DNA from: a virus
Strand: one strand, 5' to 3'
Length of the DNA: 25,291 nt
IMG/VR virus record: IMGVR_UViG_3300027754_000401
Span: 1-25,291 of that record
The position numbers and the translations under genes were made by a program. The notes beneath the pieces were generated by a model, which was not told the origin of the DNA, ran no database searches, and saw only the letters and a list, made by a program, of their open reading frames with translations. Below, piece by piece: positions 5,714-20,217 of this stretch (position 1 is its first letter; the number at the start of each line of letters is the position of its first letter).

Positions 5714-5946
5714 TCGGCGGGGGGCATCCAGCGGTAAAAGCTGGCGCGTTGCGTCGTGCAAGGGATCGGCTTTTGGCGGTGTTCAATCACGTGGCCACCA
5801 GGGTGGCGCAGTTCGGAAATGCGGGAATGGACGGCAAAGGCCCCGGACACGGCGGCCAGTTCGGGCATGGGCACCCATTCCCCTGGGGTTTCCATGAGTC
5901 GGGCCAGCACGCGGGCGGCCTGGGTGGTGGCTTTGTTCGGGTCCAT
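5710..5946 (-). CDS. Small helix-turn-helix protein (HTH_39-like)
   Basis: A 78-residue protein from ATG 5944-5946, 2 nt after the connector gene and overlapping the glycosyltransferase start as ATGA. The layout is a compact winged helix: ARVLARLMETPGEWVPMPELAAVSG, AFAVHSRISELRHPGG (recognition-helix region, residues about 37-52), then HVIEHRQKP and SFYRWMP as the wing. This matches the HTH_39-type phage domain, where 'HSRISELR' is the key stretch. A DNA-binding gene embedded in the structural operon could regulate late expression, but no target site is evident. Confidence 0.7.
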   Translation of the reverse strand: MDPNKATTQAARVLARLMETPGEWVPMPELAAVSGAFAVHSRISELRHPGGHVIEHRQKPIPCTTQRASFYRWMPPAE

Positions 5947-6479: not shown

Positions 6480-7409
6480 TTAGGTATTGATATTGACGCG
6501 AACCCCGGCCACGGAATTCGTGACGCTGGGGAGCGCATACCAGTCAAACTTGGCAATTTCCTGGCGGCCGTCCGGGGACGTGTAAGCACCTGGCACCATG
6601 AATTTTCCGGCAAGGCGGAAAGTTTTCATAAAGCTGGGGTCGTGGCGGGTCGGGTTCGCCATGGTGGCAAACACGATAACCGACGTGTCCAGAATAAAGC
6701 CCATGGCGGCGGTGAGGCCGTCGGCGGCCGAATCGTAAACCGTCATTGCAATCTGATTCTGGGGGGCACCCATGAGCAGGCTTTGAATGTCGGCAATGGT
6801 CGGGTTGACCATTTCCTTTTTCCCGCCGGACGCAAAGCGGCCTTTTACGCTGGAATGATTCTTAAACCGACGGAAGGCCGTTGGCCCCCAGAGGATCCGA
6901 ATATTCATCAGGCTGCCGGACTTGGCGGCCTTGGCCACGGCAATGATTTTCTGGTCGAGTTCGTCCACCAGGTCAATGTTGGCGGTGGCGAGGGACAGAT
7001 CCGTGCCGGCTCCCAGAGTGGTAAGGGCCAGGTTTACGGTTTCGTATTCATGGGCCAGGCCGCCCAGCTGGGCGCAAATGTCGGCACCTTCCTGCAAGGA
7101 AACTTGCAATTCAGGGCCGGCCAGGGTTTCGATTTCGTCAATGGGGAAATCCAGTGCATTTGCCACCAGGTTGGCGGTGGTTTCCGTTCCAGAAAGGCCC
7201 ACGATAGTGGCGGCACCATTGGCGGCGCGTTTGGTCTGCGGGATTTTGAAACGGGTTTTTTCGTCGAAGGTCCAGTAACGGAAACGGGTCCCGGGGACGT
7301 TGACGGTAGGGGAAAGGAATTCGGCCAGGGCACCAATGGCGGCCTGGGCGGCACCTTGCGAATAGTTCTTAATGGTGGCCGTCATGGCGGCGTCGGAGAG
7401 TTTAGACAT
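6480..7409 (-). CDS. Major capsid protein
   Basis: A 309-residue protein from ATG 7407-7409, within the usual 300-350 range for Mu gpT and B3/D3112-type capsid proteins. It has an N-terminal helix (AAMTATIKNYSQGAAQAAIGALAEFL), then VPGTRFRYWTFDEKTRFKIPQTKRA (about 38-62), resembling the extended arm region. DQKIIAVAKAAKSGSLMNIRILWGPTAFRRFKNH (about 151-184) resembles an A-domain core with the typical 'vlwG-p-afr-f' turn. The C-terminus (PSVTNSVAGVRVNINT) is beta-rich. It follows protease and decoration genes in canonical order. Hairpins flank the gene, and its A/C-rich leader has no Shine-Dalgarno sequence; both may support high expression. Confidence 0.8.
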   Translation of the reverse strand: MSKLSDAAMTATIKNYSQGAAQAAIGALAEFLSPTVNVPGTRFRYWTFDEKTRFKIPQTKRAANGAATIVGLSGTETTANLVANALDFPIDEIETLAGPELQVSLQEGADICAQLGGLAHEYETVNLALTTLGAGTDLSLATANIDLVDELDQKIIAVAKAAKSGSLMNIRILWGPTAFRRFKNHSSVKGRFASGGKKEMVNPTIADIQSLLMGAPQNQIAMTVYDSAADGLTAAMGFILDTSVIVFATMANPTRHDPSFMKTFRLAGKFMVPGAYTSPDGRQEIAKFDWYALPSVTNSVAGVRVNINT

Positions 7410-7441
7410 ATTTTTTTAGGGTTTGGGTTTTTGGGTTTGTG

Positions 7442-7467
7442 CCCGCAGGCCCGTGGGGGCCTGCGGG
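7442..7467 (-). promoter_or_regulatory. Hairpin in the leader between decoration and capsid genes
   Basis: Perfect 11-bp inverted repeat, 7442-7452 against 7457-7467, with loop GTGG (plus strand), placed 17 nt after the decoration stop and about 32 nt before the capsid ATG. No T-tract follows on the transcribed strand, so it is unlikely to be a simple terminator there. It may act as an RNA processing or stabilising element. On the plus strand it is followed by GCTTTT, a weak terminator shape. Confidence 0.6.
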
Positions 7468-7484
7468 GCTTTTGGGGGGATCGG

Positions 7485-8018
7485 TTAGGAGGCGGAAATC
7501 AGGCCTTGAGAAACCAGGGCAGCGTGGAGGGCGCGGAGATCGTCCCCCACTTTTTCCGTTTCGGCCGCAAGGTTTGCAAGGTTTGCAGAGGCCGCAGCGG
7601 CCGTGCCGTTGGTGCTGGTCAGCACCACGGAAATGGCGGGCAGACTGCGGCGGCCCGTAAGTGGCCGCACTTTCACCAGGCCGCCAGTGGCCACGGTGGT
7701 TTCGGCAATACCCCACGCTGGCCCAGTGTCCTGGGTGCGCACGGTGCCGGGGTTCACGGTGTCAAGTTGCACCAGGTCCCCCATGGTAACGGTGCCGGTG
7801 GCCACTACGGAAACCTGCTGGTCGGGAGAAAGCGGCAGCACGTCGGCACGTTCAGCGGCGGCGGCCCCGCAGATAACGACAAAGGCGGGCACGTCAGTAA
7901 TGGCCGCAGTGAGGGCCACGGATCCGGCGGTGTTGAGTTTGACTAGATACCCCTCCTTATTAACGAGGGAAGCGATGGCCACTTTTGAAATGAGGCCTTT
8001 AATGGTGTTCGATTGCAT
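7485..8018 (-). CDS. Capsid decoration/cement protein (DUF2190-like)
   Basis: A 177-residue protein from ATG 8016-8018. The central beta-rich part contains VVATGTVTMGDLVQLDTVNPGTVRTQ (about 69-94) and then a GIAETTVATGGLVKVRPL-like segment (to about 120). This matches the DUF2190/RecA-x-gp-like decoration fold, where 'G-d-l-v' and 'G-v-a-...-G-...-v-v' strands recur. Residues 137-177 form a predicted amphipathic helix (AAAASANLANLAAETEKVGDDLRALHAALVSQ) that may trimerise the protein. Decoration proteins bind the capsid exterior after expansion. The position between protease and capsid genes supports the call. Confidence 0.65.
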   Translation of the reverse strand: MQSNTIKGLISKVAIASLVNKEGYLVKLNTAGSVALTAAITDVPAFVVICGAAAAERADVLPLSPDQQVSVVATGTVTMGDLVQLDTVNPGTVRTQDTGPAWGIAETTVATGGLVKVRPLTGRRSLPAISVVLTSTNGTAAAASANLANLAAETEKVGDDLRALHAALVSQGLISAS

Positions 8019-17778: not shown

Positions 17779-18432
17779 TTATCCCTCGGGGGTTTCGGTG
17801 GGATCTGCCAGGAGGGCGGCCACCAGGCGGTCCACGTTGGTGGTGGTGGACACGGCCACGGTTTCGTCCTTCCCGGGCACCACGGTGACGCCAATCTGGG
17901 CCAGCTGGGCGTCGGTGAGGGTGCCCAGGGCGGCCTTGGCCAGTTCGGGGGCCGGCTGGCGGACCAGGGCGGGGGCCAGGTCCGGCAGGTGGGTGCGGAT
18001 AATCTGGATGGTGTCGGCCACGTTGGTGACTTCCAGCTTGTCCTGGCCCTTTTTGAAACCGCAGCGGATCCCATGAATTACCAGGGTGCGGGGTTTCACG
18101 AAAAGGTGGGGCATGGATTCCACCATGGCCAGCAGGTTGGCCCGGGCCTCCTGGGCTTTGGCCACGGCCTTGGTGAGGGGGCGCAGGTGCTGGCGGCGCA
18201 CCATTTCCATGAGTTCGTGGGCCTCGCCTACTCTTTCGGCCAGGGCGGCGTGGGCAGTGGCGAATTTTTCCGCCAGGTTGGAAATCAGATCAATGGCGGC
18301 GGTAGGTGGGTGGACTTTGGACTGGGTGGCGTTGTCGGTTTCGGTGGGCATGGTGGTGGTGGCGGTGTTTTGGTTTTGGTTTTGGGTTTCGGCTGCGTCG
18401 GCAGCCAAAAATTTTTCGTGTTCGTAGTGCAT
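17779..18432 (-). CDS. Gam-like host-nuclease inhibitor (tentative)
   Basis: A 217-residue protein from ATG 18430-18432, sharing one base with the upstream stop (TAATG). A low-complexity Gln/Asn/Thr N-terminus includes a QNQNQN stretch from a GGTTTT repeat. A long helix follows (SNLAEKFATAHAALAERVGEAHELMEMV, to about residue 75). The C-terminal domain reads VKPRTLVIHGIRCGFKKGQDKLEVTN (about 112-137), later AQLAQIGVTVVPGKDETVAV. A long coiled-coil helix followed by a 'G-x-i-x-f-r' strand pair and closing 'lGv.v...e.f.v' resembles Mu Gam (PF07352), which binds DNA ends and blocks RecBCD. Gam sits in a similar early position in Mu. Confidence 0.5.
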   Translation of the reverse strand: MHYEHEKFLAADAAETQNQNQNTATTTMPTETDNATQSKVHPPTAAIDLISNLAEKFATAHAALAERVGEAHELMEMVRRQHLRPLTKAVAKAQEARANLLAMVESMPHLFVKPRTLVIHGIRCGFKKGQDKLEVTNVADTIQIIRTHLPDLAPALVRQPAPELAKAALGTLTDAQLAQIGVTVVPGKDETVAVSTTTNVDRLVAALLADPTETPEG

Positions 18433-18902
18433 TATTCCAAGTGGCTGCGGAATTCGGCGGCGGCGGATTCGGACAGGGCGCGGGGGACGGTGCGGCGGCG
18501 GGCGTTGGCGCAGCGGCGGCGGAGTTTCAGGAGTTCGGCCGGCGGCAGGGTGCGCCAGGCCCCGGGTTCCATGAGGCCGTAAATGTCCACCAGGACGGCC
18601 CGCAGCCAGGCGTCCCCCAGTGAATCCTTTTCAATTCCCCGGATCAAGCGGGCGCGTTCGGCGGCCTCCTGGCGCAGCTGGCCGTCGAGGTCGTCGGGAT
18701 CGGTGACGGCCCGGAAGTGGGCCAGCATCATGTCCAGGTCCCGGTTGGTCAGGTCCCGGGAGGACACGGCGCGGCCGCAGGCTTTTAGCGTGGTTTCGGC
18801 CCTCCAGTCCTCACATTCGGCGGTGGAATATCCGTGGGATTGCAGCACCTTGGCGGCGGCGTTGAATTCGGCCCAATATCGGCGGTTTTGTTCGGGTGAC
18901 AT
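18432..18902 (-). CDS. Hypothetical early protein
   Basis: A 156-residue protein from ATG 18900-18902. It is all-helical and rich in charged residues: NRRYWAEFNAAAKVLQSHG, DLTNRDLDMMLAHFRAVTDPDDLDGQLRQEAAERARLIRGIEKD, and a basic LLKLRRRCANARRR near 124-137. The WLRAVLVDIYGL segment (99-110) may form a hydrophobic core. The length and helical layout recall other early Mu-type accessory proteins such as GemA, but the characteristic GemA motifs are absent. The function is unknown. Confidence 0.65.
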   Translation of the reverse strand: MSPEQNRRYWAEFNAAAKVLQSHGYSTAECEDWRAETTLKACGRAVSSRDLTNRDLDMMLAHFRAVTDPDDLDGQLRQEAAERARLIRGIEKDSLGDAWLRAVLVDIYGLMEPGAWRTLPPAELLKLRRRCANARRRTVPRALSESAAAEFRSHLE

Positions 18903-19222: not shown

Positions 19223-19834
19223 TTAGAAGCGTTCGGCGGGGTCCAGGTAGGGCAGGCCCAGGGTTTCAAAGGCGTGGGGTTCGTCCATAATTTGGATTTT
19301 CTGCCAGCCATTCAGGAATCCCGGCTGGTCCCTGGACGGGGACCACTTCATGCCCTTTTCCTGGGCACGCTGGGCCAGGTGGATATTGTGGGCCAGGGGG
19401 CCAGTTCGGCACAGGACCAGGGACCAGAAACTGGCCGGCGTGGCCCGGAAAAAATCCACGGGAATGCCGGTGCCCCGGTCCACCATGTAGTGAATCCATG
19501 GGCCATTGGCCGGGGTGCCCTTTTTACCGGTGCGCCAGGCCAGGATCCCGTCCCTCACCAGGTGATCGAGGGCGGCGGCCATTAGATTCTGGCCGGGCAT
19601 GGGCAGGAGTTCCCCAGGGGGGCAGGCCTCACCGATCCGTGGGCAATAAACCATGTCCACGTCCCCGACCATTTCCAGGCCTCGGCGGATGGATCCGCAG
19701 ACCATGAGGCCGGGCATGGTGGGGGTGTCGTCGGTGGGGCCATTCACGGGTCCGCAGTGCTGGGCCAGGACGGCCAGGAGGCGGCCGGCCACGGCCTGGG
19801 CCTGGGCCAGGGGGTAACGGGTGGCGGTGCTCAT
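19223..19834 (-). CDS. Minimal PolX-like nucleotidyltransferase
   Basis: A 203-residue protein from ATG 19832-19834, chosen because it overlaps the upstream stop as ATGA; longer in-frame sequence is antisense-like low complexity. CGSIRRGLEMVGDVDMVY (46-63) is the GS...R...gDxD signature of family X polymerases, with D58 and D60. The third acid is likely D127 in IPVDFFRA. The C-terminus repeats PolX thumb features: FWSLVLCRTGPLAHNIHLAQRAQEKGM (136-162) and a closing FETLGLPYLDPAERF (189-203), the family's 'LGLpyi-P-eR' ending. The N-terminal 8-kDa/HhH and fingers parts of PolX are absent. It may fill gaps left after transposition or modify ends; the substrate is unknown. Confidence 0.8.
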   Translation of the reverse strand: MSTATRYPLAQAQAVAGRLLAVLAQHCGPVNGPTDDTPTMPGLMVCGSIRRGLEMVGDVDMVYCPRIGEACPPGELLPMPGQNLMAAALDHLVRDGILAWRTGKKGTPANGPWIHYMVDRGTGIPVDFFRATPASFWSLVLCRTGPLAHNIHLAQRAQEKGMKWSPSRDQPGFLNGWQKIQIMDEPHAFETLGLPYLDPAERF

Positions 19835-20217
19835 ACTGCGGCCCCCTTTCGGCTTGCAATTGCGCTTAGGTTGGCCGGCACCAGGCCCATGAGAATGGCC
19901 CAGCGGCCCAGTAATTCCTTGGGCTGCCGCACCTTGGTGGCGGCGGCGTAGGCCCCGACCCGTTCCCGGTCCACCATCCACTGGTGGACGGCGGCCTGCT
20001 GGTCGGGCGTGGGGTAGGCAATGGGGGCCACGGCGTGGCGGTCCCGGGCCAGGCTGGGGACGGCCACCTGCATGCGGCCGGCCCAGTAGCGCAGGACCCC
20101 GGTCTGCTCTCCTACTTCGCGGGCGGCGCGGGTGCATCCTATAACGGGGCGGCGGGCCAGCCAGGTCATTACCTGGTGGCGGATTTTATCAGTAATCGGT
20201 TTGTATGGTTTGGCCAT
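19831..20217 (-). CDS. Putative small HTH protein
   Basis: A 128-residue protein from ATG 20215-20217. Helical throughout: DKIRHQVMTWLARRPVIG, then CTRAAREVGEQTGVLRYWAGRMQVAVP, which looks like a helix-turn-helix at about 28-55. A second helical part follows (TPDQQAAVHQWMVDRERVGAYAAATKVRQPKELLGRWAILMGL). It overlaps the PolX-like gene by 4 nt, so their products may be made together. The exact family is not recognised. Confidence 0.6.
   Translation of the reverse strand: MAKPYKPITDKIRHQVMTWLARRPVIGCTRAAREVGEQTGVLRYWAGRMQVAVPSLARDRHAVAPIAYPTPDQQAAVHQWMVDRERVGAYAAATKVRQPKELLGRWAILMGLVPANLSAIASRKGAAV

Follow-up and report, generated by a model that had tools for sequence, protein, structure and literature searches.

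What could a DNA polymerase of only 203 amino acids (aa) do in the early region of a transposable phage? The question is raised by a gene at positions 19,223–19,834 of a stretch of viral DNA of 25,291 nucleotides (positions 1 to 25,291 of IMG/VR record IMGVR_UViG_3300027754_000401), the whole of which we call the window. A preliminary description, made from the letters of the window, read the product as a minimal family X DNA polymerase (PolX) encoded beside MuA and MuB, which could repair the gaps left by transposition or perform another nucleotidyl transfer. We find that this gene, polX, shares a transcription unit, or at least a region, with the genes for the transposition proteins of a Mu-like phage, and that a short PolX recurs at this place in other Mu-like phages. 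The reading that we prefer, with a probability of roughly 45%, is that the product of polX is active as a minimal PolX and either fills short gaps at the joints made by transposition or tailors DNA ends. Support for the enzyme class is good, and the gap-filling role is plausible; activity and role are what we infer from the evidence below.

Family assignment and active site

In the polX open reading frame (ORF), the motif G47-S48-x-R50-R51...G57-D58-V-D60 is accompanied by a third aspartate, D127, and by a C-terminal LGLPYLDPAER; the GS...R...GDVD motif, third Asp and closing LGLPYLDP named in the preliminary description are thus all present in the 203-aa protein. The ORF opens with an ATG at 19,834 that overlaps the upstream ORF, orf128, in the sequence ATGA and is preceded by AAGGGGG, and its GC content by codon position (0.67/0.50/0.81) is that of a real high-GC gene. 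It can be extended in frame upstream (320 aa from stop to stop), but the added part would be a second-frame reading of the overlapping orf128, and the assigned start fits the RYPLA found near the N terminus of the nearest relative, L305. The ATGA overlap suggests that orf128 and polX are translationally coupled.

Profile searches and structure prediction, the two computational checks proposed in the preliminary description, both led to family X. The window protein matched Pfam DNA_pol_B_thumb above the cut-off (E = 3.8e-8; 33.5 bits, cut-off 25) and DNA_pol_B_palm weakly (E = 4.4e-4), its PolX match in NCBIfam was partial and sub-threshold, and a search of PHROGs gave no match. A phmmer search of PDB ranked Thermus PolX first (E = 9.3e-8). 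When the family was represented by a profile of 29 aligned sequences including the window copy, none of which matched a PHROG, Thermus PolX was matched at 5e-36, Pol lambda at 2e-27 and Pol beta at 3e-18; PDB 5hrk, a 178-aa 'DNA polymerase beta-like protein' that we take to be Pol X of African swine fever virus (ASFV), was matched at 4e-18.

An AlphaFold2 model of the window protein, made with 28 relatives, had a mean predicted local distance difference test score of 84.9 and a predicted template modelling score of 0.82, with poorly predicted loops at residues ~70–80 and 109–111. Its top Foldseek matches were Thermus PolX and human Pol lambda (E ~1e-12, best 1.4e-12), and VIA-align superposed 173 of the 203 residues on human Pol lambda at 2.5 Å (Z 19.1). 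Most of the top VIA-align rows span the palm and thumb of Pol lambda (residues 377–574); the window protein therefore consists of palm and thumb and lacks the 8-kDa domain, and a single helix stands ahead of the palm where the preliminary description had noted the loss of the N-terminal HhH/8-kDa region. HMMER alignments equate D58 and D60 with residues 198 and 200 of Thermus PolX and D127 with the third PolX carboxylate, so that by alignment and model fold the expected palm with its three aspartates is in place. Sequence alignment and fold match together identify a palm with GS-x-R-R...G-D-x-D and a third Asp, joined to a thumb with a TG(S/P) turn and an LGL-Y-P-R closing signature; the N-terminal 8-kDa/HhH region is absent but not strictly required of a PolX, ASFV Pol X being likewise without it. 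We are close to certain that the gene product is a PolX palm–thumb enzyme.

The palm fold is common to many nucleotidyl transferases that modify tRNA, proteins or small molecules, and a non-DNA target of this kind, for example in counter-defence, would accord with the drift of the second and third catalytic aspartates (Asp2 and Asp3) among relatives. We consider it quite improbable, since the PolX-specific Pfam thumb is matched by 29 of the 29 aligned sequences, window copy included, the closing P-x-x-R signature is invariant, the best full-length fold matches are DNA polymerases, and families of the MNT/AbiEii type are absent from the Pfam and NCBIfam matches of the window protein.

The window protein keeps the residues that bind deoxynucleoside triphosphates (dNTPs) and carry out catalysis (S48, R51, D58, D60, D127, G145 and N150), and it is probably active on DNA. 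Other active-site positions, equated with Pol beta residues by sequence alignment, carry a distinct signature: the window protein has CRTGP where YFTGS is usual and A154 at the position of R283. At the R283 equivalent, all 30 relatives of the window group have a small residue (Ala, Val, Cys, Leu or Ser), and the 26 other PolX (11 from phages and 15 of the cell type) all have Arg. At position 272, Arg occurs in 20 of the 22 copies from Mu-like phages (Mu copies) and Phe in all 15 cell-type sequences; at position 271, the Mu copies carry Cys, Ala, Thr, Ser or Ile, and the cell-type sequences Tyr or His. With the equivalents of R283 and Y271/F272 gone, fidelity may be lower, or template and sugar selection looser, than in ordinary PolX; R156, an Arg two residues beyond the R283 equivalent that is common in the Mu group, could partly compensate. 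In terminal transferases of the TdT/Pol mu type, Gly-Trp replaces Tyr-Phe before TGS; the window protein has C142-R143 here, and the Mu group mostly a small residue followed by Arg. A 10-residue insertion after the Asp3 strand was rejected as a mark of all Mu copies, being absent from the window copy, L305, L345, L310, L288 and L292. Asp3 itself is Asn, Gln or Glu in L004, L011, L021, L037, L033, L025, L007 and L038.

In the PolX tree, the window copy sits on a long branch and clusters with L305 and L345, both from Mu-like phages, with support 99/99. The approximately unbiased test neither establishes nor rejects a clade uniting all Mu copies (p-AU 0.12 with 23 rows and 0.35 in an earlier test), and recruitment of polX into Mu-like phages once or several times are both possible. 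A dead or decaying PolX without current function would explain the long branch, and a remnant (L306) and a frameshifted copy (L009) do occur elsewhere. We hold this to be very improbable, given that the window copy retains the three Asp and the dNTP-binding residues and that the ratio of nonsynonymous to synonymous substitution rates is 0.06–0.33 in five close pairs of relatives (the window copy lying outside these pairs), which indicates purifying selection on polX in those lineages.

Short PolX beside MuA and MuB

A tblastn search with the window PolX gave no match in annotated phage genomes, and IMG/VR scans for close kin of the window PolX and of its MuA found none. Looking for MuA kin of individual phages recovered little beyond the seed records, and the relatives were too divergent for one alignment of them all to serve in a scan of the collection; relatives were reached only through degenerate motif patterns or a MuA alignment. 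A degenerate DNA pattern for GS-x-RR-x4-VGDxD recovered 48 contigs from IMG/VR, most of them encoding a short stand-alone PolX, and the typical length of short PolX in the group is 167–203 aa. A scan of genome contigs returned mostly full-length cellular PolX, the useful matches being the archaeal L113 and L130, a prophage-like Mu-like element with a short PolX in a Desulfobacteraceae metagenome-assembled genome (MAG).

A short PolX was found in the early region of 23 distinct Mu-like records, the window and L130 counted in, usually downstream of MuA–MuB and on the same strand. MuA (phrog_310) was present in 8 of 38 records found with the PolX pattern, the window's kin included, and in none of 50 control records, which were selected by means of an arbitrary 16-mer (Fisher p = 8e-4). 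Jackhmmer searches started from window proteins identified MuB, portal or terminase in further PolX records, where polX again lies in the early region and shares its strand with MuA/MuB. Searching IMG/VR with the MuA alignment yielded 62 Mu-like loci, with an intact short PolX in 13 (0 of 69 control loci; p = 3e-5) and a remnant in 1, proportions that are no census, as the seeds were MuA of PolX-bearing phages, the PolX of L301 and L302 are identical and many loci are incomplete. All 14 of these copies are on the strand of MuA, and 12 of the 13 intact ones are downstream of it. On the comparisons with control records and control loci we reject a chance placement of polX near MuA, and finding it repeatedly next to MuA/MuB in diverse Mu-like phages makes a role linked to transposition likelier than a single sighting would.

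These data also bear on whether polX encodes a general DNA repair polymerase of the phage, which would fill short damage gaps like ASFV Pol X and owe its early location to the accumulation of DNA-metabolism genes there. Larger phages do bear PolX outside transposition operons, and related short PolX also occur in phages without detected MuA. Against general repair stand the strong enrichment in Mu-like phages and the repeated proximity to MuA/MuB, and also the count of zero for apurinic/apyrimidinic endonuclease or ligase families among 83 neighbouring proteins; we regard it as rather unlikely.

The window itself encodes MuA, MuB and Gam (Table 1) together with a Mu portal protein (Portal_Mu, E = 6.9e-68), the gene set of a Mu-like transposable phage, which bears out the MuA/MuB setting of the preliminary description. 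Relatives of orf156 occur near polX in 14 Mu-like records (for example L301, L345, L288 and G006), adjoining or overlapping it in several; orf156 has no Pfam match, its predicted structure has no significant PDB match, and it may take the place of GemA here.

Table 1. Position, strand and supporting evidence of polX and other features of the window
Feature	Position	Strand	Evidence or remark
Minimal family X DNA polymerase (polX), palm and thumb, 203 aa	19223..19834	(-)	D58, D60, D127; GSIRR...GDVD
MuA-like transposase, 695 aa	21595..23682	(-)	phrog_310, E 3.2e-16; aligns with other MuA
MuB-like transposition ATPase, 356 aa	20485..21555	(-)	phrog_296, E 9e-34; AAA_22, TniB
orf128, no family match	19831..20217	(-)	stop overlaps polX start codon (ATGA)
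orf156, all-helical protein	18432..18902	(-)	recurrent polX neighbour in Mu-like phages
Mu Gam-like (Ku-like) DNA-end protection protein	17779..18432	(-)	phrog_491, E 5.3e-6; Pfam Phage_Mu_Gam, 0.0049
ORF in structural gene region, 447 aa	4418..5761		DXD glycosyltransferase sugar-binding motif (PF04488, E 1e-5)

Outside the Mu-like phages, no cultured Mu-like phage being matched by the PolX group, the cultured phages matched by relatives are mostly large, and those inspected exceed 100 kb and have a PolX of ~240–320 aa. L113, a Bathyarchaeota MAG, encodes at 6,877–7,539 a short stand-alone PolX of 221 aa that groups with phage sequences and may originate in an archaeal virus or element. Another group of short phage PolX (L011, L019, L021, L034, L036, L040, L042 and L017) has a C-terminal CxC...CxH zinc finger of the SWIM type; in one aligned member it is matched by Pfam SWIM (E = 4e-4), and in the tree the group is placed nearer cellular PolX. 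Broken polX copies were seen at 37,665–38,311 of L009 (record G005), split over two reading frames, and at 5,808–6,455 of L306, a remnant in a Mu-like locus.

Possible gap filling at transposition joints

MuA joins the 3' ends of Mu to target phosphates that lie 5 bp apart, with 5' flaps present on infection. Strand transfer by MuA leaves 5-bp gaps that need filling (PMC3325207). Acting on DNA as a nucleotidyl transferase, the window PolX would add a few nucleotides to a 3'-OH, most likely at the strand-transfer joint, where gaps of ~5 nucleotides would present a target 3'-OH and a 5' flap, and phage PolX may fill these MuA-made gaps directly. Because the 8-kDa domain serves to bind the 5'-phosphate of a gap (PMC5537341), its absence should be no handicap at a flap, and an enzyme without it would be suited to a gap bounded by a 5' flap instead of a clean phosphate. 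That transposition gap or end repair is the main role of the window PolX is a possibility that we take seriously, at somewhat less than even odds.

Several observations weigh against this proposal. E. coli repairs the 5-bp gaps of Mu through PriA-DnaT/RecABC, without a need for polA (PMC3325207); phages of this class thus need not have a dedicated gap-filler. No phage ligase was found near polX. As 48 of the 62 Mu-like loci (many of them incomplete) are without PolX and one has a remnant, polX is an accessory gene, and the Mu copy in L306 is itself a remnant. Asp2 is replaced by Glu in four Mu copies (L305, L345, L288 and L292), the two nearest to the window copy among them, and Asp3 by Glu in one Mu copy and by Asn or Gln outside the Mu group. 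Finally, R283 contacts the template strand in Pol beta, where its loss costs activity and fidelity.

The neighbouring Gam gene raises the alternative that PolX is an end-joining partner of the Ku-like Gam and fills or extends incompatible ends by template-independent or microhomology-directed addition. PolX family members act in non-homologous end joining, a Gam gene lies close to polX both in the window and in several relatives, and the Y271/F272 and R283 substitutions are compatible with relaxed templating. However, TdT retains an Arg equivalent to R283, and no ligase was found nearby. Gam is also present in nearly all transposable phages (PMC8705779), which makes its co-occurrence weak evidence, and we judge a Gam partnership improbable. 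Returning to gap filling by PolX, we tentatively propose that these enzymes may form a minimal PolX lineage dedicated to transposable phages: an accessory polymerase, part of the Mu machinery and altered in template and sugar selection, that would itself fill or tailor the strand-transfer gaps and so render host gap repair dispensable.

Comparison with known systems

The repair of the gaps that transposition leaves is a long-standing question, and a host gap-filling polymerase has been widely assumed; for Mu in E. coli, the repair that has been proved is by recombination and replication restart and not by a gap-filling polymerase (PMC3325207). A polymerase encoded alongside the transposition genes of many Mu-like phages provides a concrete system for testing the gap-filling idea. 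The open-access literature (subscription papers being outside its scope) yielded no phage family X polymerase like this one, with or without Mu-like phages. According to a 2017 paper, the usual PolX domain make-up has a single known exception, ASFV PolX (PMC5537341); a 2024 structural survey notes viral PolX from ASFV and from giant viruses (PMC11646218), and a survey of transposable prophages gives MuA, MuB, Gam and GemA as near-core and mentions a polymerase only for RpoB (PMC8705779). What is new is that a short PolX recurs beside MuA/MuB and that the copies have substitutions in common. The minimal PolX without an 8-kDa domain now reaches beyond ASFV into a broad, unannotated phage group, which supplies naturally occurring variation at positions that govern fidelity in Pol beta, and the variation at Asp2 and Asp3 raises the question of which relatives are active.

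Among cellular enzymes, Thermus thermophilus PolX matches the core best, both in fold and in profile searches, and shares the catalytic triad and thumb. In contrast to the window PolX, however, bacterial PolX of this kind have ~575 aa, with an N-terminal 8-kDa/HhH region and a C-terminal PHP exonuclease, and they retain Y-F-T-G-S and the R283 equivalent, which the window group does not. The palm and thumb of human Pol lambda and Pol beta can likewise be superposed on the window model (173 residues at 2.5 Å for lambda, 167–170 for beta), whereas both human enzymes have their own 8-kDa lyase domain, an intact YF pair and the template-strand Arg.

Phage PolX with ~25–31% identity to the window's relatives are found in YerA41 (DNAP03), Rhizobium phage RHph_TM39 and Escherichia phage vB_EcoM_IME392, but these are proteins of 252–318 aa with an N-terminal extension, from phages of more than 100 kb; expression of YerA41 DNAP03 gave no protein (PMC9023294). 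A parallel in domain make-up is ASFV Pol X, a stand-alone minimal PolX that, like the window protein, lacks the 8-kDa domain (PMC5537341). It belongs to another class of virus and another setting, and its BFVD entry matches the window model weakly (E = 1.6e-4), whereas the phage group has a signature of its own, with R283 replaced by a small residue and a small-Arg-T-G turn, and sits in the transposition region.
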